Shown here piece by piece: positions 260-36,970 of a DNA stretch of 64,000 nt; the stretch's first letter is position 1; each line of letters opens with the position of its first letter. The notes below the pieces were generated by a model, which was not told the DNA's origin, ran no database searches, and was given only the letters and a program-made list of their open reading frames with translations. Position numbers and translations under genes: made by a program. Source of the DNA: a bacterium (lineage in GTDB: Bacteria; Bacillota; Clostridia; Lachnospirales; Lachnospiraceae); contig JAUNJY010000001.1 of assembly GCA_030535455.1 (NCBI GenBank), positions 62,001 to 126,000 on the forward strand. Direction: 5' to 3'.

Positions 260-294
260 TAAAAAACTGCGCGGGCGCAGGCTACGCCTGCGCC
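260..294 (-). terminator. Intrinsic terminator overlapping the exporter stop codon
   Basis: A 9-bp GC-rich stem (274-282 with 286-294, loop of 3) contains the TAG stop of the upstream minus-strand ABC gene. A six-T run follows on the minus strand (complement of 261-266), seven bases past the stem. Confidence 0.6.
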
Positions 295-2048
295 ATATAC
301 AGACGGTAGTATGCACCATGTTTTGCAAGTAATTTGGCTGCGGAACCTTCTTCAATAATTCCACCTTCATCGATAACAAATATCCGATCTGCATTTTGAA
401 TAGTAGAAAGTCTGTGAGCAATGACAAAAGCAGTTCTATTTTCTAATAAAGCTTCTATACCTTGCTGGATCAATTTTTCAGTCTTTGTATCTATACTGGA
501 AGTTGCTTCATCTAATATTAAAATCTTAGGTTTAGCTAACAATGTCCTTGCAAATGCAAGCAGTTGCTTTTGTCCAACAGACAGACCACCGCCACGTTCT
601 TTTAGCTCGGTATCGTATCCATCAGGTAATTTGCAGATAAAGTCATGAGCATGTACCGCTTTGGCTGCAGCTATGATTTCGTCTTCAGTAGCATCCAGAT
701 TTCCATACCTTATATTATCTCGAATGGTTCCGGTAAAGATATAGCTGTCCTGAGTCATAACGCCCATCTGGCTACGAAGGCTTTCTAAGGAGATGGAGTT
801 AATACTGTGCCCATCAATCTTAATATCCCCATGCTGAAGGTTATAAAATCGACTGATTAGATTAACAATGGTAGTCTTTCCGGCACCTGTTGGCCCAACA
901 AGAGCAATGGTTTCTCCAGGCTTTACATGGAATGACAGCTTATGAAGCACATCAGTCTGAGAGTCATAGGAGAAGGTGACATGGTCAAAGGAAATATCCC
1001 CTTTGATATCAGGAAGTTCTTTTGCTTTGGAACTATCGGATATGGTTGGTTTCGTATCAATAATTTCAAAGATACGTTCTGCACCTGAGAGATTGGTAAT
1101 CAACTGATTATAGTAGTTACTCAGGTTCATAACAGGATTCCAGAACATTCCGATGTAGGAGGCAAAAGCAACATAGGTTCCAAGGCTTACAGCATCTCTT
1201 CCAAGTACATAAATGCCAAACAGGTATAACATCATGGTTCCAATACCCCAGCAAAAGTCAGTAGAAGGTCCAAAGGCATTGGAATACAGGACGGCTTTAA
1301 TCCAGGATTTTCGGTGTTCTTCCACAAGTTCATCAAAGGTATTATTTGATTCTTCCTCAGCATGAAAACTTTGTATAATGCGGATACCCGATAAATTCTC
1401 ATGAATAAATGCATTCAGGTTGGAGTTTTTCTTACGTACAACCTGCCAACATTTATGAGAAAAGGATTGAATGAGAAAGATTAAAAATATCATAAGTGGC
1501 AGGCTGGATAAAGCGGCAAATGCCAGTTTGTAGTTCTTTATCACCATGATTATGACTACGGCGCAAATAGTAATGAAGTCAGGAAGTAGGGTGGTCACAG
1601 TATCGCTGATTACACCCTTTAGAGAATTTACATCTCCAATGATACGTGCAAGGATCTTTCCGGTTGGCCTAGAGTCAAAAAAGTCAAAGCTTAATGTTTG
1701 GATATGAGTATAAAGTTCCTGACGAATGGTAAGCAGGACCTTATTACTGACTTTAGCCATAATATACATTCTAAGCTTGATCAGAATGACCAGCCCAATA
1801 TTGATTCCAATGGCAAACAGGCATAAGCCAAGCAAGCCAGAGAAGTCTTTTGGTTTTATGTAATGATCGATTGCAGTTTCCATAATCAATGGATTTAAAA
1901 TCGATATTGCAGTGGAAATCCCCATCACCACGCAGACAATAATCAAGGAGAGTTTATAGTCTAGCAGATAGTGAAACAGCCGTTTAAAAAGGGCAGTCTT
2001 TTTCATTGTGTTGGATTGTTCATCTTGTTTATAAGAATTAACAGCCAT
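282..2048 (-). CDS. ABC exporter half-transporter, BmrD/YheH-like subunit
   Basis: A 588-residue fusion of a six-helix exporter membrane domain (about residues 20-320) and a nucleotide-binding domain. Visible motifs are Walker A GPTGAGKTT near residue 381, signature LSVGQ near 488, Walker B ILILDEATSS near 503 with the catalytic Glu, and the H-loop AHRLST near 541. The signature Gly is replaced by Val. The partner immediately upstream has the complementary defect, the pattern of heterodimeric multidrug exporters such as BmrC/BmrD, LmrC/LmrD and TM287/TM288. The ATG follows AGGAGGTG. The two genes are 14 bases apart and surely cotranscribed. The substrate cannot be read from sequence. Confidence 0.9.
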   Translation of the reverse strand: MAVNSYKQDEQSNTMKKTALFKRLFHYLLDYKLSLIIVCVVMGISTAISILNPLIMETAIDHYIKPKDFSGLLGLCLFAIGINIGLVILIKLRMYIMAKVSNKVLLTIRQELYTHIQTLSFDFFDSRPTGKILARIIGDVNSLKGVISDTVTTLLPDFITICAVVIIMVIKNYKLAFAALSSLPLMIFLIFLIQSFSHKCWQVVRKKNSNLNAFIHENLSGIRIIQSFHAEEESNNTFDELVEEHRKSWIKAVLYSNAFGPSTDFCWGIGTMMLYLFGIYVLGRDAVSLGTYVAFASYIGMFWNPVMNLSNYYNQLITNLSGAERIFEIIDTKPTISDSSKAKELPDIKGDISFDHVTFSYDSQTDVLHKLSFHVKPGETIALVGPTGAGKTTIVNLISRFYNLQHGDIKIDGHSINSISLESLRSQMGVMTQDSYIFTGTIRDNIRYGNLDATEDEIIAAAKAVHAHDFICKLPDGYDTELKERGGGLSVGQKQLLAFARTLLAKPKILILDEATSSIDTKTEKLIQQGIEALLENRTAFVIAHRLSTIQNADRIFVIDEGGIIEEGSAAKLLAKHGAYYRLYMAQA

Positions 2049-2062
2049 GATAAATACACCTC

Positions 2063-3796
2063 CTAGCTGACAGAGACTTGTTTTGCAATATCTCCGTATT
2101 GTGTTTTATAAGTTTCATAATAAAGTCCACGTAGTTTAAGAAGTTCCTCATGGGTACCACGTTCTACAATCTGCCCATCTTCCAAATAGATAATTTCATC
2201 GGCATTTCTGACCGCACTAATTCGATGGGCAATGATTAGCTTGGTAGTCTTTTGCAAGGAAGCCAGATTTTTCTGGATATTATGTTCCGTTTCCATATCA
2301 AGGGCGGAGGTTGAATCGTCAAGTACAAGAATTGGGGCATGTTTGGATAATGCTCGTGCAATGCTGATTCTTTGTTTTTGGCCTCCAGAAAGTCCGACGC
2401 CTCGCTCCCCGATAATTGTTTCATAGTCAGAATCCATCTTACTAATAAAGCTATCGGCCTCCGCTTGCTTGGCAGCTGCCCTTACATCATTTGGATTAAG
2501 ATTTTTTCGTTTCCCAAGCTTGATATTTTCAAAAACAGTATCAGAGAAAAGGAAGACATCTTGCATTACTAAGGAGATGGATGTTCGAAGCTGTTGCAGC
2601 TTTAATTTCTTAATGTTTACCTGATCTAATCGAATCTCTCCGCTATCCACATCGTAAAGACGTTCTAACAGATTGATGATAGAGGACTTTCCGGCACCTG
2701 TTGCGCCCATAATTCCAATCGTCTTGCCAGGAGAGATATGAAAGCTTATGTCTTTTAAAATTTGCTTTCCGTTGTGAAAGAAGCATACATGGTCAAAAGA
2801 AATTTCCCCTTTTACCACAGGTAAGGTAACGGCATCTTCCGCGTCTTGTATCTTTGGAGCATTTTCATAAATCTTTTCAATCTTCTTATTAGAAGCAAGT
2901 GCGGATGAGAATTCATTGGTCAGCCAGCCAAGCATCTCCATAGGCCAGACGATATTCATAGAATACTCAGTAAAAGCACTTAGCTGTCCAAGACTTAGTG
3001 TATTGTTAATATAGAGATATCCGCCAAATAGAAGAACAGTAAATGGAAGCAGCTTTGTGACCATTTGAAAATATGGATAGAACCGTACAAATACTTTAGA
3101 CTGCTTCATATTTAGTTCATAGTAGCGATTATTATGGGATAAGAATTTCTTAATCTCATATTTTTCTCTGGCAAAGGCTTTAACGGTACGCACACCACTA
3201 AGATTTTCCTCGGCAACGGTATTTAGGACCGCATTTTCTTCACTGATTTCTCCATAAATCTTACCAAGCTTTCGTTCCATAACAATTGCCAGTGTTCCAA
3301 CGATAGGAAGAACCAACGTTGGAATAACAGCTAAGGCTGGACTAATTCGATACATGCAGAAAAGTACGAATACGGTGTGGATGGTGACCTCGATTAGGAG
3401 CATGCCAACAAAGCCAAGCACATTCCATATCTTATCTATATCGTCTTTGACACGGGCCATAAGTTCCCCAGTGCTAACATCATCAAAGAAGGAAATATCA
3501 AGTTTTTGTATGTATTGAAACAGGTTAGTACGTAAGTGAATGCTGATCTTATTACTTACAATGTCAAATGTAGTCTCTTTTGTGTATTGGAAGATACATC
3601 TTCCGATTCCGATTGCTAAGATGCCAAGTAATAGCTTGGGAAGTAATGACATGTTTCCACCAACAAGTACGTTATCTACAATTGATTGGGTAATCATTGG
3701 GGAGAGCATATCCAAACTGATGCTGATTACCATGCTGGCAATTGCAAAGGCATAGAAATACCAATACTTTTTGATGTAATAGGTTATTTTTTTCAA
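2063..3796 (-). CDS. ABC exporter half-transporter, BmrC/YheI-like subunit with degenerate ATP site
   Basis: A 577-residue membrane plus ATPase half-transporter. Walker A is GATGAGKSS (near residue 360), the signature is canonical (LSGGQKQRISIARAL, near 467), but Walker B reads ILVLDDSTSALD (near 487), so the catalytic Glu is Asp. With the altered signature of the downstream subunit this predicts one hydrolysing and one degenerate ATP site in the heterodimer. The start is a TTG preceded by AGGTAGG. Upstream lie a terminator, a short leader ORF and a near-consensus promoter, implying attenuation control. Family knowledge suggests drug or lipid efflux; the substrate is unknown. Confidence 0.9.
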   Translation of the reverse strand: MKKITYYIKKYWYFYAFAIASMVISISLDMLSPMITQSIVDNVLVGGNMSLLPKLLLGILAIGIGRCIFQYTKETTFDIVSNKISIHLRTNLFQYIQKLDISFFDDVSTGELMARVKDDIDKIWNVLGFVGMLLIEVTIHTVFVLFCMYRISPALAVIPTLVLPIVGTLAIVMERKLGKIYGEISEENAVLNTVAEENLSGVRTVKAFAREKYEIKKFLSHNNRYYELNMKQSKVFVRFYPYFQMVTKLLPFTVLLFGGYLYINNTLSLGQLSAFTEYSMNIVWPMEMLGWLTNEFSSALASNKKIEKIYENAPKIQDAEDAVTLPVVKGEISFDHVCFFHNGKQILKDISFHISPGKTIGIMGATGAGKSSIINLLERLYDVDSGEIRLDQVNIKKLKLQQLRTSISLVMQDVFLFSDTVFENIKLGKRKNLNPNDVRAAAKQAEADSFISKMDSDYETIIGERGVGLSGGQKQRISIARALSKHAPILVLDDSTSALDMETEHNIQKNLASLQKTTKLIIAHRISAVRNADEIIYLEDGQIVERGTHEELLKLRGLYYETYKTQYGDIAKQVSVS

Positions 3797-3841
3797 TGGG
3801 TTCGCCTACCTTTCTTTCTCTGTAAAAGGCCTAAAAAAGTG

Positions 3842-3874
3842 CAAAAAAATAAGCTATGGCTGAACCAAAGCTTA
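3842..3874 (-). terminator. Intrinsic terminator (attenuator) between leader ORF and exporter genes
   Basis: On the minus strand the hairpin AAGCT-T-TGG / CCA-T-AGCTT (3851-3873, five-base loop, one internal mismatch) is followed by seven T residues (complement of 3843-3849). It lies 43 bases after the leader stop and about 46 bases before the TTG of the exporter gene, so transcripts from the promoter at 4057-4085 must read through it to express the exporter. Confidence 0.75.
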
Positions 3875-3916
3875 AGAGAGTGAAACTAGATGCAATAATA
3901 GATAAGAGCATAAGTT

Positions 3917-4003
3917 TTACCGTATAGTCTCTTTTACAGAGGTAAATCCAAGGGTTAAATTGATTATTAAGTTACCAGTTCTTAATTTCATAAAATGTCT
4001 CAT
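3917..4003 (-). CDS. Putative 28-residue regulatory leader peptide of the ABC exporter operon
   Basis: An ATG (complement of 4001-4003) sits 7 bases after a perfect AAGGAGG site (complement of 4011-4017) and opens 28 codons beginning MRHFMKLRTGNL and ending KETIR, then TAA. It lies downstream of a consensus sigma-A promoter and upstream of an intrinsic terminator, ahead of a BmrCD-type exporter. In Bacillus subtilis bmrCD is controlled by the short leader ORF bmrB through ribosome-mediated transcription attenuation; this arrangement matches that logic, though I see no sequence similarity to claim. No membrane segment or known domain. An alternative is a small functional peptide, but position argues for a leader. 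Confidence 0.65.
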   Translation of the reverse strand: MRHFMKLRTGNLIINLTLGFTSVKETIR

Positions 4004-4056
4004 AGTTTTACCTCCTTCTTTGTTTTTATTGGTATTTATTAACAGTGCTGTGTTTG

Positions 4057-4085
4057 ATTATAGACTTGAAAATTGGAAATGTCAA
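4057..4085 (-). promoter_or_regulatory. Consensus sigma-A promoter of the leader-exporter operon
   Basis: On the minus strand TTGACA (complement of 4080-4085), a 17-base spacer and TATAAT (complement of 4057-4062) form a textbook housekeeping promoter. Transcription would begin near 4050 and give a leader of about 45 bases before the leader ORF. Confidence 0.85.
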
Positions 4086-4149
4086 CCATAAATATGCTAT
4101 AATTTTTTTATAAGAAAGATTAATTATTTATTAATTTTTACAATTTTCA

Positions 4150-4177
4150 TTGTTTATTCATATATCTATGATATACT
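4150..4177 (+). promoter_or_regulatory. Possible sigma-A promoter of the alarmone synthetase gene
   Basis: TTGTTT (4150-4155), a 16-base spacer and TATACT (4172-4177) precede the ATG at 4238 by about 60 bases. The -35 box is weak. The rest of the 440-base divergent spacer (3797-4237) holds the leader ORF, attenuator and exporter promoter on the other strand. Confidence 0.4.
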
Positions 4178-4237
4178 TACGAAGTATTTAAAAACAAACA
4201 TATGCGTATTACGTAAGAATGAGTAGAGGGTGTTAAT

Positions 4238-5149
4238 ATGGAGTTACCAATGTTTTATGATACGGTAGAAGAGTGGAATCAGGCATTACTATTATATGAT
4301 TCAGCATTAAAGGAAGTCGGGACAAAACTTGATATCCTAAGTAATGAATTTAAACTAACTCACCAATACAATCCGATTGAGCATATTACTTCAAGAATTA
4401 AGTCATCTCAAAGCATTGCAAAGAAAATGCAGCATAAGGGCCTTGAGCTGACAACCGAAAACATTGTAAAATATTTAAATGATGTTGCCGGAATTCGAAT
4501 TATTTGCTCCTTTACATCTGATATTTATCGAATTGCAAGCTTGATTGCCAAGCAAAGTGATGTAAAGGTTTTAAAAGTAAAAGACTATATTATGTGTCCA
4601 AAATCAAATGGCTATATGAGCTATCACATGATTGTATCAGTTCCTATTTTCTTATCTGAAAATGTAATTGATACAAAGGTAGAAATTCAGATTCGTACTA
4701 TAGCAATGGATTTTTGGGCAAGCTTAGAACATAAAATATATTATAAATATGAGGGCAATGCCCCAGAACGTATTCGTAACCAGTTAAAAGAATGTGCAGA
4801 CATCGTGTCGTATCTTGATAAGAAGATGCTTTCTATTAATGAAGAGGTACAGTCATTTAACCATGTAAACGAAGCACAAGTAAGAACATATCAAAGTAAT
4901 TTGAATGATTTGTTCGGACGAATTGTTAATGAAGCAGAAGAAGTCCAAGAAGTGAAAGTGGAGCCAGAACTTCCAAAAGAGACATTGGAATCAGCACTTA
5001 CGGCAAATCTGATTGATGACGATAATCAGGAAGAAGAAGTGATGGATGGAATTATTTCAGAACAGCCGAAAGAAAAGAAAGATGGTTTTACCGGTTTTTT
5101 CTTCCGCAAGAAGGATAAGGACGTAAAGCAATCTGCGGCTTCAGAGTAG
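4238..5149 (+). CDS. Small alarmone synthetase ((p)ppGpp synthetase, RelQ/YjbM-like)
   Basis: Predicted to transfer pyrophosphate from ATP to GDP or GTP to make the stringent-response alarmone. Motifs of the RelA/SpoT synthetase domain are present in order: RIKSSQSIAKKM (about 53-64), DVAGIRII (86-93), YIMCPKSNGYMSYH (117-130) and EIQIRTIAMDFWASLEHKIYY (148-168). There is no HD hydrolase, TGS or ACT domain, so it is a single-domain synthetase. At 303 residues it exceeds typical RelQ/RelP proteins (about 210-230): roughly the last 90 residues form a charged tail, acidic then ending in a basic FFFRKKDKD segment. It is probably cotranscribed with the next gene, 29 bases downstream. Confidence 0.88.
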   Translation: MELPMFYDTVEEWNQALLLYDSALKEVGTKLDILSNEFKLTHQYNPIEHITSRIKSSQSIAKKMQHKGLELTTENIVKYLNDVAGIRIICSFTSDIYRIASLIAKQSDVKVLKVKDYIMCPKSNGYMSYHMIVSVPIFLSENVIDTKVEIQIRTIAMDFWASLEHKIYYKYEGNAPERIRNQLKECADIVSYLDKKMLSINEEVQSFNHVNEAQVRTYQSNLNDLFGRIVNEAEEVQEVKVEPELPKETLESALTANLIDDDNQEEEVMDGIISEQPKEKKDGFTGFFFRKKDKDVKQSAASE

Positions 5150-5178
5150 ATGTAAAATGAAGAAAAGTAGGTGAAAGC

Positions 5179-5922
5179 ATGCTGAAGTTTCTAGGAACTG
5201 GCGGGGCATTTAATATTGCACGTGGGAATACCAGTGCATATATGGAGTTTGCAAACGAACTCTTCTTATTTGATGCAGGAGAGGACGTATTTAAAAAGCT
5301 CATCCAGTTAAAGTTATTAGAGAAAAAAGCCAGAGTGAATATCTTTATCACTCATTTACACAGCGATCATATCGGAAGTCTTGGAACGATTATCGCTTAC
5401 CTATACTATAAAGTGTATAACCAGGATAACAGCAATATCTGCATATACTTCCCATCAGAAGCCATTGTGGATTTGTTGGAGCTGCAAGGTGTACCACAAT
5501 CAATGTATAACCTATTCTTAAATAAATGGGATGAACTTTACATTCCTACGTTAGGAAGAAAGCAGCCAGAATATAGTTTCTTTGAGACAGAGCATACGAA
5601 AAACTTAGACTATAAGGGAGCTTGTAACTGTTATAGCATTGAGTTTATGCTTGAGAATGAGTTTAGTATCTTCTATAGTGGAGATAGCAATACGTTTCAT
5701 GAGAAATTGCAAAATATCTATTATTATGATCAGATTTATCAAGAAGTTACAATGGTTAAAGAGGCTTCCGTCCATCTTAGTTATGACAAGTTGTTAGAAG
5801 CAACGAAGAGTCTTACTAAGGAAGAACGAGGACGTATCTACCTTATGCATCTTGATGAGGATTTCGATGAGGAAATGGCTAGAAATGATGGATTTAGCAT
5901 TGCCCAAGCAGTTTCATTATAA
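5179..5922 (+). CDS. MBL-fold metallohydrolase
   Basis: A 247-residue metallo-beta-lactamase-fold protein. It opens with the family pattern FLGTGGAF, has the metal motif THLHSDHIG (H59, H61, D63, H64), a second metal Asp in YSGDS (about 170), and C-terminal His candidates in HLSYD and MHLDED. This layout resembles RNase Z-like and cyclic phosphodiesterase-like members, but the substrate cannot be fixed. It follows the alarmone synthetase by 29 bases and ends before a bidirectional terminator. Confidence 0.8.
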   Translation: MLKFLGTGGAFNIARGNTSAYMEFANELFLFDAGEDVFKKLIQLKLLEKKARVNIFITHLHSDHIGSLGTIIAYLYYKVYNQDNSNICIYFPSEAIVDLLELQGVPQSMYNLFLNKWDELYIPTLGRKQPEYSFFETEHTKNLDYKGACNCYSIEFMLENEFSIFYSGDSNTFHEKLQNIYYYDQIYQEVTMVKEASVHLSYDKLLEATKSLTKEERGRIYLMHLDEDFDEEMARNDGFSIAQAVSL

Positions 5923-5971
5923 TTGAAAATTATAAAATTTAGATAGAGAATTTCAATAAAAAATTTAAATA

Positions 5972-6007
5972 AAAAGAGGTGGTAAGCATTTGCTTACCAC
6001 CTCTTTT
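5972..6007. terminator. Bidirectional terminator, perfect 17-bp stem
   Basis: Arms 5972-5988 and 5991-6007 pair perfectly with a two-base loop; A-rich and T-rich ends on either side make it work for both convergent genes (MBL hydrolase on plus, S1 protein on minus). Confidence 0.85.
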
Positions 6008-6009
6008 GC

Positions 6010-6034
6010 AGCTTGGCGAATTTGTCGCCAAGCT
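6010..6034. repeat. Hairpin AGCTTGGCGA / TCGCCAAGCT
   Basis: A perfect 10-bp stem with loop ATTTG directly beside the previous terminator. Its outer arm AGCTTG is shared with the hairpin at 52284-52308 (AGCTTGTCGAC stem), suggesting a common repeat type. Confidence 0.5.
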
Positions 6035-6059
6035 TTGTATGAAATCAAGCGTTGATCTT

Positions 6060-6989
6060 CTACAGTTTGAATTTGCTAAGAAGGCTGCCAAGACTTGTGC
6101 TGGCATCATCATCGCTGATATATTCAATTGGAGTATGGTCAATATCTTCTACCACGTCTTCTCCTTCAGAAACTGCTTTCATATCTAAGCTGATTTTTCC
6201 GTCAACTACATCTAAGATTTTTACCTTAACTTCTTGTCCTTCGCTGACTACCTCTTTTGGAGATTTAATACGTTTTGCACACATGCGGGAGATATGCACA
6301 AGGCCAGTAAGTCCATCGCCGATATTTACAAATGCGCCATAAGGCTCAATTCGTTCTACCACACCAGTAGTTACTACACCTTTTTGTACGTGGGATAATT
6401 TTTCTCTATGTTCAGCATCTGCTTGTTCTCTTGCAACTGCCTTAGCAGAAAGAACGAGCTTCTTACGATCTCTATCTGCAGTGATTACGATTACTTCAAG
6501 TTTTTTGCCAACCCATTCGTCGAGGTTTTCAACATAGGATAAGGAAAGCTGGGAAGCTGGAATAAATCCACGGATTCCATTTACATATGCAACAACACCT
6601 GCATTAACAGCACTGTCAACGACTACGCTGTATTTTCTTTGATCCTCTAATGCAGCACCAAATTCTTCCCAAGCAAGTTCGCTGCTTGCCTGTTTCTTGC
6701 TTAATAATACATTGCCATTTCCATCATCTACTTCAAGTACATAGGCTTTAAATGCTTCACCTACTGTAATATCTGTAAATACAGAGAAATGAGGGTCATC
6801 ACTTAGTTCAGATGTATAAATGATACCTTCTGCATAAGAACCGATATCAACGATTGCATGATCTTCTTTGACACCGATTACCGTACAGGTTACAAGGTCT
6901 CCTTCTTTAATTCGGCTGAAGGACTTATTAATGGCATCTTCAAAGTCAGCCATTGTTAGGTTCTCTTCGTTTGTATTTACTTCTGACAT
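6060..6989 (-). CDS. S1 RNA-binding domain protein (ribosomal protein S1-like)
   Basis: A 309-residue protein with three S1/OB-fold domains: about 28-100 (EGDLVTCTVIGVKEDHAIVDIG), 113-185 (GVVAYVNGIRGFIPASQLS) and 199-270 (GVVERIEPYGAFVNIGDGLTGLVHIS). It resembles the short S1-type proteins of Firmicutes rather than the six-domain S1 of proteobacteria. The N-terminus and C-terminus are acidic. The ATG follows AGAAAGGACG. It is likely monocistronic, ending at the shared terminator at 5972-6007. A translation or mRNA-binding role is inferred from the family. Confidence 0.85.
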   Translation of the reverse strand: MSEVNTNEENLTMADFEDAINKSFSRIKEGDLVTCTVIGVKEDHAIVDIGSYAEGIIYTSELSDDPHFSVFTDITVGEAFKAYVLEVDDGNGNVLLSKKQASSELAWEEFGAALEDQRKYSVVVDSAVNAGVVAYVNGIRGFIPASQLSLSYVENLDEWVGKKLEVIVITADRDRKKLVLSAKAVAREQADAEHREKLSHVQKGVVTTGVVERIEPYGAFVNIGDGLTGLVHISRMCAKRIKSPKEVVSEGQEVKVKILDVVDGKISLDMKAVSEGEDVVEDIDHTPIEYISDDDASTSLGSLLSKFKL

Positions 6990-7054
6990 AATAGCACGTC
7001 CTTTCTGATTTTACTTCTTATATAGTATAATTCTATTTTTAAAATGTTAACCGT

Positions 7055-7819
7055 CTATTCTTTTTTTACACGAAACCAGTAGGTATAAAGCGCCCTAAAA
7101 CCAAGGGAATGATAGACTCTCTTGGCAATCAGATTGTCATCTACCACCTGTAGATAGGCATGATGAATCCCTTGCTCTTTTGCTCGAAGCAAAAGGCTGC
7201 TGACAATGGATTTAGCAAGCTGCTGACCCCGATAATGCTCATCTACATAGATGGCATAAATACCGATATGGTCACGCTCAAGAATGCCAAGTCCTGTAGC
7301 AATGGTATTACCATGGTCAATGATACAGGCAGAAATAATATCTCTCGGTATGGCTTCATACATCTTAGGGACAATGGTAAGATGGTTCTCATTGGTTGTC
7401 CGATTTAAGTGAAACAGGTTCATAATCCAGTTCTTTGTCAGGCGGTCTTCTACAATTACCTCATAGTGAGGATTAGAAGTCACCTGAATGTCAGAAAGGT
7501 TGCAGCAATACGTATCTGTAATATGCTCTTTTACATAGCCTCTTTTCAGAAGCATATGGTCCAGTCCTTCTGTAAAAATGGGATTGATCTTAAAGATACA
7601 AGGCGTATTCAGCCTCTTATACTCTTCTTCACAATATCTGATTTTCTTATCAATCGGCAGCCTAGAACTTCCAATGACATGAACACAGTTGGTCCGATGA
7701 GTATAGAAATCGGAGTATCCAAGCAGCCAGTCATCATAGAGCTCTGATTTATAGGAAGGCCAGGCATTAAATGAAAGTTCTTCTATAAACTTGATATAGC
7801 TTGTGTCCTTCTGTATCAT
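7055..7819 (-). CDS. GNAT family N-acetyltransferase
   Basis: A 254-residue protein whose C-terminal half carries the acetyl-CoA binding fold: IGIYAIYVDEHYRGQQLAKSIV (motif A, with R-G-Q-Q-L-A) and the C-terminal AYLQVVDDNLIAKRVYHSLGF pattern. The N-terminal 130 residues form a second, divergent GNAT-like half. The acceptor is unknown. Divergent from the Nudix gene across a 127-base spacer carrying -10-like boxes on both strands. Confidence 0.8.
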   Translation of the reverse strand: MIQKDTSYIKFIEELSFNAWPSYKSELYDDWLLGYSDFYTHRTNCVHVIGSSRLPIDKKIRYCEEEYKRLNTPCIFKINPIFTEGLDHMLLKRGYVKEHITDTYCCNLSDIQVTSNPHYEVIVEDRLTKNWIMNLFHLNRTTNENHLTIVPKMYEAIPRDIISACIIDHGNTIATGLGILERDHIGIYAIYVDEHYRGQQLAKSIVSSLLLRAKEQGIHHAYLQVVDDNLIAKRVYHSLGFRALYTYWFRVKKE

Positions 7820-7946
7820 AGTATTCCCCCTAAGTCTCTTACGTGAATAAAACTTAACACGGTATCTTTATTATAGTATAATATGGAATAAGCTTGCAAG
7901 TAGTAGGAGAAAATGAACGAATAAAGAAGAAAGAGAAGGTGTTAGG

Positions 7947-8639
7947 ATGTTAAAATTTAGTGAGAACTACAAAGAATTTGTTGGTGATGGCAGTGTAGAT
8001 GAAAATGGAAGAACACTAGAAGAATTTTTGACAGAATATGATCCTTATAAGTATAAAACGCCGGCAGTGACAGCGGATATCGTAGTATTGAAAGAAAAAA
8101 ACGATGCGGATATAGAAATAAACAATACTGGGCTTCAGCTACTGCTGATCAAAAGAAAAAATCATCCATGTATTAATGAATGGGCGCTCCCAGGTGGATT
8201 TGCTGAACTGGATGAGAGCTTGGAAGAGAGTGCAAAACGAGAGCTAGAAGAGGAGACAACCGTTACAGGTGTGCCAATGCAGCAATTAAGAACATGGGGG
8301 GAACCTGATCGTGATCCAAGAGGCAGAGTCATTACTGTTTCCTATCTTGCATATTTAGAACAAGAGGTTGATGTTGTTGCATCGGACGATGCAAAAGAGG
8401 CAGCATGGGTAGATGTAAGACTTAATCTAATTCAGACCATTCGAGCAGGACAAGCAGTTACTAAGAAATATTATCTTGAGCTTTATAGTAAAGAACGATC
8501 AATGACTCTTAGTGCAGCTGTATCGGTAACAAGAGAGACTAGAGGAATAACAAGACAAGACACTTATACCTTACATGCTAGTAATGGAATTGCCTTTGAT
8601 CATGCTAAGATTATTTTAGATGCATTGTTATCTTGTTAA
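7947..8639 (+). CDS. Nudix hydrolase
   Basis: A 230-residue protein with a Nudix box GFAELDESLEESAKRELEEET at about 93-114 (G-x5-E-x7-RE-x2-EE), with the usual second Gly replaced by Thr. Such enzymes hydrolyse nucleoside diphosphates linked to another moiety; the N-terminal 35 residues and surroundings resemble ADP-ribose pyrophosphatase-like members with about 60 extra C-terminal residues. It starts at an ATG after GAAGGTG. Substrate not assignable. Confidence 0.82.
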   Translation: MLKFSENYKEFVGDGSVDENGRTLEEFLTEYDPYKYKTPAVTADIVVLKEKNDADIEINNTGLQLLLIKRKNHPCINEWALPGGFAELDESLEESAKRELEEETTVTGVPMQQLRTWGEPDRDPRGRVITVSYLAYLEQEVDVVASDDAKEAAWVDVRLNLIQTIRAGQAVTKKYYLELYSKERSMTLSAAVSVTRETRGITRQDTYTLHASNGIAFDHAKIILDALLSC

Positions 8640-34275: not shown

Positions 34276-34503
34276 ATATAAGGCGTCGATAAGGACCAGT
34301 AAGATATTTATGCTTTTAAAGAGAGAGAATCACATGGTGAGAGATTCTTAAAGAACGGATATTTGAACCTACCTTGGAGCTCTGTATGAAAATACAGCGT
34401 ATTTCCTGCGTTATTGGAGAAAAAGAGAGTAACAGATAGTTACTAAATAGGGTGGTACCGCCGAGTCTTTCGGTCCCTTGTGGACGTGAGGGCTTTTTTT
34501 TAT
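34276..34503 (+). ncRNA. T-box leader, proline-type
   Basis: A T-box riboswitch: stem I region with GGACCAGTAAGAT, the specifier loop TTTGAACCTACC with CCT (Pro) at 34368-34370, the T-box sequence TAGGGTGGTACCGCC (34448-34462) that pairs with the uncharged tRNA acceptor, and a terminator (CCCTT / GAGGG then T8) ending at about 34502. Uncharged tRNA-Pro would favour antitermination and raise proS. Confidence 0.88.
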
Positions 34504-36871: not shown

Positions 36872-36970
36872 AGCAGCGGGATGCGAATGTTGTACCGCAA
36901 GCAATGGCTTTTCGTCCGCCCAGCAACTCCCCGTCTGGATGGCACTTAACGCACAACATTCTACTCTGCT
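36872..36970 (-). ncRNA. Tetrahydrofolate (THF) riboswitch
   Basis: The minus strand carries the folT-motif aptamer: P1 GCAG / CTGC, GTAGAATGTTGTGCGTTAAGTG, an internal GTTGC segment and GCGGTACAACATTCGCATCC closing the long stem. GCGTTAAGTG and CGCATCC are the hallmark conserved blocks. It is positioned 60 bases before folT and binds THF to lower expression. Confidence 0.88.

Follow-up and report, generated by a model that had tools for sequence, protein, structure and literature searches.

The vmlR leader of Bacillus subtilis is described as carrying an upstream open reading frame (uORF) within an anti-antiterminator, an antiterminator and an intrinsic terminator, together with one more hairpin, farther downstream, whose opening becomes possible in the antiterminated form (PMC9226507); each of these has a predicted counterpart in the family of leaders described here. 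The vmlR uORF, however, has three codons, compared with mostly 24–45 in our leaders, its Shine–Dalgarno (SD) sequence is described as single-stranded before SL-1, whereas here the SD forms a helix with an anti-SD that the ORF contains, and the gene controlled encodes an ABCF protein rather than an exporter or a paralogue of the GTPase RsgA (PMC9226507). The cplR leader of Clostridioides difficile, which has been placed in the same alignment as lmo0919/vgaL of Listeria and is induced by lincomycin and retapamulin, likewise has a uORF, an aligned anti-SD element and a terminator; as reported there, the uORF has three codons and the SD of the gene itself lies in the terminator stem, (PMC10201436). 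In our leaders a longer ORF contains the anti-SD, and it is the leader SD that the arm of the terminator often resembles. The bmrB leader of bmrCD in B. subtilis also places a leader ORF and a terminator before a heterodimeric ABC exporter, and its attenuation is translation-dependent, but its ORF, of 53 codons, contains the terminator, which here lies 3' of the stop codon, its promoter is AbrB-repressed, and the main text of the paper does not use the words Shine–Dalgarno (PMC4191407). In Listeria, hflXr (rli80) is a duplicated ribosome-associated GTPase gene under a leader-ORF attenuator, a parallel to the RsgA paralogue discussed below, although its ORF has 14 codons with an RLR motif and the GTPase is of a different family (PMC6310831); the ABC-leader of two lactobacilli is likewise a predicted attenuator before a multidrug export operon (PMC2965389).

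The window, that is, the whole stretch of 64,000 nucleotides analysed, belongs to an assembly of 4.35 Mb in 126 contigs, and contains the following parts of the leader and its exporter, with regions 1–4 denoting the segments proposed to pair.

4057..4085, minus strand: sigma-70-type promoter TTGACA-17-TATAAT, 12/12 consensus matches
4017–4011, minus strand: AAGGAGG, the leader SD stretch
4007..4015, minus strand: region 1, leader SD GGAGGUAAA, 9-bp partner of region 2
3917..4003, minus strand: leader ORF of 28 codons, encoding MRHFMKLRTGNLIINLTLGFTSVKETIR; a short ORF stands at the same place upstream of relatives, its peptide not conserved
3938..3946, minus strand: region 2, anti-SD UUUACCUCU within the leader ORF, predicted to pair with region 1
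3931..3941, minus strand: 3' extension of region 2, CUCUGUAAAAG, complementary to region 4 (z −4.0)
3843..3874, minus strand: intrinsic terminator, hairpin 3874–3850 (5' arm, region 3) and T7 at 3849–3843, −10.6 kcal/mol
3818..3828, minus strand: region 4, post-terminator CUUUUACAGAG, 11-bp complement of the region 2 extension
2063..3796, minus strand: ABC exporter subunit A, 577 aa, TTG start, LVLDDSTS with D after Walker B (degenerate catalytic residue)
282..2048, minus strand: ABC exporter subunit B, 588 aa, canonical LILDEATS, signature LSVGQ

The original prediction of a promoter, AAGGAGG, a 28-codon ORF and a terminator with seven T residues, followed by a heterodimeric ABC exporter, was confirmed, all on the minus strand. 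The promoter was the sole 12/12 match among the 32 promoters listed in 3400..8500. The terminator hairpin, in which six and four pairs flank a U·U-type mismatch, had a z-score of −2.63, with two of 200 shuffled sequences equally good, and is also present in the sister genome (L025); a simple consensus terminator scan did not list it, and the stability of the window leader as a whole was no greater than that of shuffled sequences. Two features absent from the original prediction are the 9-bp SD:anti-SD helix (4015–4007 with 3946–3938; p 0.03 against shuffled ORF bodies) and the 11-bp match between the region 2 extension and region 4. No Rfam 15 family reached its gathering score over the leader, either in the window or in the 18 scanned of the 88 loci L009–L096. 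The sister genome carries a frameshift in a second small ORF, at 3911..3831, which was therefore taken to be a chance occurrence.

The original prediction also held that the logic of bmrB had arisen or persisted here with a different peptide. A leader-ORF attenuator architecture before a heterodimeric ABC exporter is indeed what we found, but persistence of bmrB itself is not supported: the window hairpin, rather than lying inside the leader coding sequence, starts 42 nt past the leader stop codon, and it is the SD:anti-SD pairing, and not the peptide, that is conserved. With LVLDD in subunit A and LILDE in subunit B, the two half-transporters of the window show the layout known from heterodimeric ABC exporters that have one degenerate site. 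The matches included the solved heterodimeric exporters TM_0287/0288 and YheH (BmrD), the latter for subunit B, as expected of an exporter of the BmrCD/TM287-288 type. The partner subunit was present at 85 of 88 exporter loci, and the named relatives were Lachnospiraceae, including Herbinix, Mobilitalea and Mobilisporobacter.

In order to assess conservation, we took the upstream regions of 88 exporters (that of the window, those of 80 loci of one set and those of seven of the eight loci of another), L089, from the same genome as L025, being left out. The full architecture was scored by rule as a GAGG-type SD no more than 17 nt before an ATG, an ORF of 15–61 codons, an SD helix with the ORF and a terminator within approximately 230 nt. 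It was found in 72 of 86 exporter upstreams (L063 and L095 having been set aside for their short flanks), compared with one of 292 control segments of 900 nt from elsewhere in these loci and none of 430 shuffled upstreams, counts that are not independent because the leaders are related. Apart from L025 and L089, no two upstreams are identical over their last 250 nt, but close relatives remain in the set. Positives lying farther than −400 showed recognisable parts on re-inspection, and the 14 upstreams lacking the full architecture by rule include two Treponema records, three upstreams in which the rule gave no terminator and five leaders of the Eisenbergiella type, whose helix is short. A leader ORF was found in 81 of 87 upstreams (L063 being too short), and the spacings between leader parts vary strongly from one leader to another. 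The leader is a real, conserved attenuator-type element. Absence of the small ORF and terminator from exporter relatives was one of two outcomes that could have told against the original prediction, and their presence in 72 of 86 upstreams settles that half of the test in its favour. A literature search brought up no title or start of an abstract on such a leader, within a coverage largely confined to papers outside subscription; Term-seq work is reportedly due to Dar et al. in 2016.

The pairing of regions 1 and 2 is the strongest of the pairings. The 1:2 duplex had a mean z-score of −3.39 over 77 leaders (97% below −1), compared with +0.35 for the control pairing of the 5' part of the ORF with the SD, and the SD helix was better than in shuffled ORF bodies, at p below 0.05, in 61 of 79 leaders (L039 and L095 left out). 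The GAGG core of the SD is nearly invariant. We looked for covariation at its flanks in 77 leaders with 500 partner shuffles, an analysis in which anchoring on the helix favours pairing in itself. Position −1 (G-C, T-A, G-T, A-T and T-G pairs) was paired in 77% of leaders compared with 51% after shuffling (maximum 64%), position +4 in 94% compared with 85% (maximum 90%) and position +6 in 83% compared with 75% (maximum 81%); at −1 and +4 the pair types co-vary, with a paired fraction above that of all 500 shuffles. In the same 77 leaders, pairing at −2, +5, +8 and +9 was not above the shuffles, and that at +7 only equalled the shuffle maximum.

The peptide, by contrast with the pairing, appears to be free. 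The anti-SD CCTC, found in 67 of 81 leaders, starts at codon position 1, 2 and 3 in 9, 48 and 10 leaders, respectively, and is translated as ITS, VTS or NTS, as KLP, or as ACLP; beyond these forced residues the exporter leader peptides have little in common, and no conserved arrest peptide of the erm or RLR type was found among them. With peptides that change from leader to leader and an anti-SD that falls in any of the three reading frames, the feature that has been kept is the RNA pairing and not an arrest peptide. This bears on the possibility of a leader in the style of erm, in which a specific peptide and its cognate drug stall the ribosome and free an antiterminator. The length of most of the ORFs (24–45 codons) would suit such a mechanism, as would the peptide ending EY/KY..(x)TS/AS-V common to leaders before RsgA paralogues, but the exporter peptides do not, and in the RsgA group it is the anti-SD codons (ACCTCGGT) that encode the TSV, so we consider this explanation unlikely. 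The same lack of peptide conservation beside a conserved SD:anti-SD pairing, and the recurrence of the layout before unrelated genes (see below), make it very improbable that the ORF is a gene for a small functional peptide with an ordinary terminator, the exporter being served by leaky read-through, even though the strong promoter and SD and the separation of stop codon and terminator would be expected of such a gene.

We next consider the partner that region 2 might take when it is released from region 1. In many relatives the anti-SD also tends to be capable of pairing with the 5' arm of the terminator, so that SD, anti-SD and terminator arm would form a switch. This was analysed in 76 exporter leaders and two leaders of small genes (L097 and L129), with L060, L075 and L080 dropped for want of a terminator by rule; the terminator of L015 was misassigned in the spacing, GGTA, duplex and nascent-fold figures, and that of L025 in the spacing and GGTA figures. 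The 5' arm contained GGTA in 51 of the 78, a count at least one too low. The mean z-score of the 2:3 duplex was −1.59 over the 78 leaders (65% below −1), compared with −0.07, −0.01 and +0.22 when that arm was paired with three control segments, and a leader's own arm had an average rank of 0.26 among all arms (0.5 expected by chance) in the 74 leaders ranked, L025, L015, L076 and L078 being left out. Partition functions for the nascent stage gave a mean predicted probability of 2:3 pairing, over the 78 leaders, of 0.07 for naked RNA, 0.37 when a ribosome occupies the start codon and 0.04 when one occupies the stop codon, with a gain above 0.2 in only 36 of them. Once the terminator is complete, its mean probability is still 0.90 with a ribosome on the start codon, and read-through would therefore have to be kinetic. 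An antiterminator exclusive with the terminator is thus supported over the family, and was found neither in the window nor in L025. In the window, the terminator arm AAGCUUUGG contains no SD mimic and the z-score of its pairing with the anti-SD is +0.5, reproducing the remark in the original prediction that no obvious antiterminator could be seen; the predicted probability of 2:3 pairing stayed below 0.1 in the window (0.00 to 0.09) and went from 0.00 to 0.01 in L025. A segment of the 5'-UTR that pairs with the terminator arm in folds of L097 and the window was rejected as a general antiterminator, its mean z-score being −0.07 over 76 leaders.

The spacing of these parts is consistent with a role for ribosome position. 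The anti-SD starts at a median of 61.5 nt after the ATG, and its 3' end lies at a median of 19 nt before the stop codon, a distance that a terminating ribosome spans, so that a starting ribosome would leave the anti-SD free and a finishing one would cover it. It might instead be argued that elongation is irrelevant and that what is sensed is the leader SD being occupied by a waiting ribosome or ribosomal subunit. Region 2, which resembles the anti-SD of 16S rRNA, vies with the ribosome for the same SD, and 1:2 is the strongest pairing, both as expected for a sensor of initiation; yet an open frame of similar length has been kept, and this, together with the 19-nt spacing, suggests that ribosomes reaching the stop codon matter, which makes a pure initiation sensor rather unlikely.

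Region 4 offers region 2 a different partner beyond the terminator. The 11-bp match of the window is present in L025 too, but both 11-nt segments fall in stretches that are nearly identical in the two genomes, and it is therefore not covariation. The 2:4 duplex had a z-score below −2 in 31% of 77 leaders, compared with 6% for a neighbouring control segment, and in the minimum-energy fold of the window a hairpin over AAAGG yields to 2:4 once region 1 is masked. These results, with the z-score of −4.0 in the window, would fit a combined or purely translational control in which 2:4 pairing in the read-through RNA opens the exporter SD, in the manner of SL-4 in vmlR. Against such control, the predicted accessibility of the exporter SD averaged 0.41 in naked and 0.40 in stalled RNA, with a change above 0.15 appearing as a gain in 10 and as a loss in 11 of 76 leaders, and the window and L025 showed no gain for the exporter SD picked by rule. 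Opening of the SD was accordingly rejected as a general rule, and we regard a combined or purely translational control as improbable; in the window, region 4 could possibly prevent regions 1 and 2 from forming their helix again after read-through.

Taken with the known systems, these comparisons are best read as pointing to an attenuator of the vmlR/cplR kind, modular and largely independent of its peptide, and we think it reasonably probable that it is a ribosome-mediated transcription attenuator that reads the position of the ribosome on the short ORF and not the peptide made. The promoter, ORF, terminator and conserved 1:2 pairing are established by sequence and statistics, as is the predicted 2:3 pairing in many relatives; from them we infer ribosome stalling, read-through and induction by antibiotics, with a translation inhibitor as the putative inducer. 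In the resting state, region 1 would pair with region 2, the helix overlapping the ORF start and acting as an anti-antiterminator, or else a ribosome finishing the ORF would cover the anti-SD; in either case the terminator would form and the exporter would be off. If a translation inhibitor, for example, detained ribosomes on the start codon or the codons just after it, these would cover region 1; region 2 would then be free to pair with region 3, the terminator arm that resembles an SD, and the polymerase would read through. In the window, where the 2:3 step does not appear in the predictions, region 4 would be the alternative partner. Such a layout probably lets the bacterium notice slowed ribosomes. 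If this is true, it is a drug-responsive attenuator in which mainly the RNA pairing is kept and the leader coding content is nearly free, and it could therefore respond to every inhibitor that detains ribosomes close to the start codon, whereas arrest peptides are specific to a drug.

Leaders of this kind were also found before other genes. The bare sequence pattern was not enriched over a backwards control (two palindromic sites compared with 13 in the window's own genome, and similarly in the family), and so we accepted as leaders only those matches that combined a start codon and an ORF with an anti-SD and a terminator, their full anatomy being judged by eye. In the own genome, the pattern search gave one further copy (G000:C18:38799-38733, minus strand; L097/L139), with the SD GAGGTAA, an ORF MINLKTRSLSTTYLSTITSVIYK, an anti-SD and a terminator, followed by a gene for 67 aa that had no Pfam match at the cut-off and no NCBIfam match. 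The sister genome has the same pair of leader and small gene, the small proteins being 48% identical. The small-gene leaders are placed as follows.

L097, 1485–1556, minus strand: leader of a 67–69-aa gene beginning MNRDLLLLIHLM
L129 (sister genome), approximately 300 nt before the gene at 1500, gene on plus strand: leader of a 67–69-aa gene with the same beginning

In these leaders the anti-SD is extended by CUCGGUAAU, which has its complement beyond the terminator, in a segment that ends with UUACCGAG. Such leaders also precede a 94-aa gene (L148) and, in L131, a reading frame without a family that runs beyond the 214 aa tested; in L134 the leader is present and the contig ends, and scans of L132, L133 and L145 gave no leader.

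In other Lachnospiraceae the leader precedes a paralogue of RsgA, a second copy of this ribosome-maturation GTPase. Eight RsgA copies, counting L136 itself, share at least 58% identity with the L136 protein; six of them have the leader (L153, L155, L156, L157, L158 and L160), with a mismatched or short SD helix in L155 and L157, and two (L154 and L159) do not; L151 is a further case. No leader was counted at eight distant copies (L161–L168, 40–52% identity) or 13 canonical RsgA loci, most of which were scanned over only 520–650 nt, and an RsgA fragment (L169) was left aside. The gene under the leader in L155 (868–2418, plus strand) encodes a GNAT acetyltransferase domain fused to the RsgA GTPase. 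The leader peptides of L135, L136, L151, L155–L158 and L160 have EY..TSV-like endings, and this subgroup might therefore also use peptide-specific stalling.

The chances are about even, in our judgement, that these leaders make up a portable translation-stress sensor of the Lachnospiraceae, with an SD, an anti-SD in a free peptide frame and a terminator whose arm can take the anti-SD as its only fixed parts, and with a small regulon of the ABC exporter, the duplicated RsgA GTPase (once fused to GNAT) and proteins of 67–94 aa without known function that may protect or repair ribosomes. The recurrence of the leader before the RsgA paralogue and the small proteins would make it a route to new ribosome-protection genes in Lachnospiraceae.

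Other elements were seen around the leader. A gene with a RelA/SpoT domain, resembling small alarmone synthetases, lies at 4238–5149 on the plus strand of the window, divergent from the leader promoter, and at 18 of the 88 exporter loci a RelA/SpoT homologue is found upstream, pointing the other way; L025 and L089, both among the 18, are from the same genome. The Rfam 15 scan of the window gave two matches, both outside the leader: a T-box leader at 34277–34481 (plus strand) and a THF riboswitch at 36970–36872 (minus strand). Between convergent genes, at 5972–6007, a strong 16-bp hairpin with a T-rich tail is a candidate terminator.
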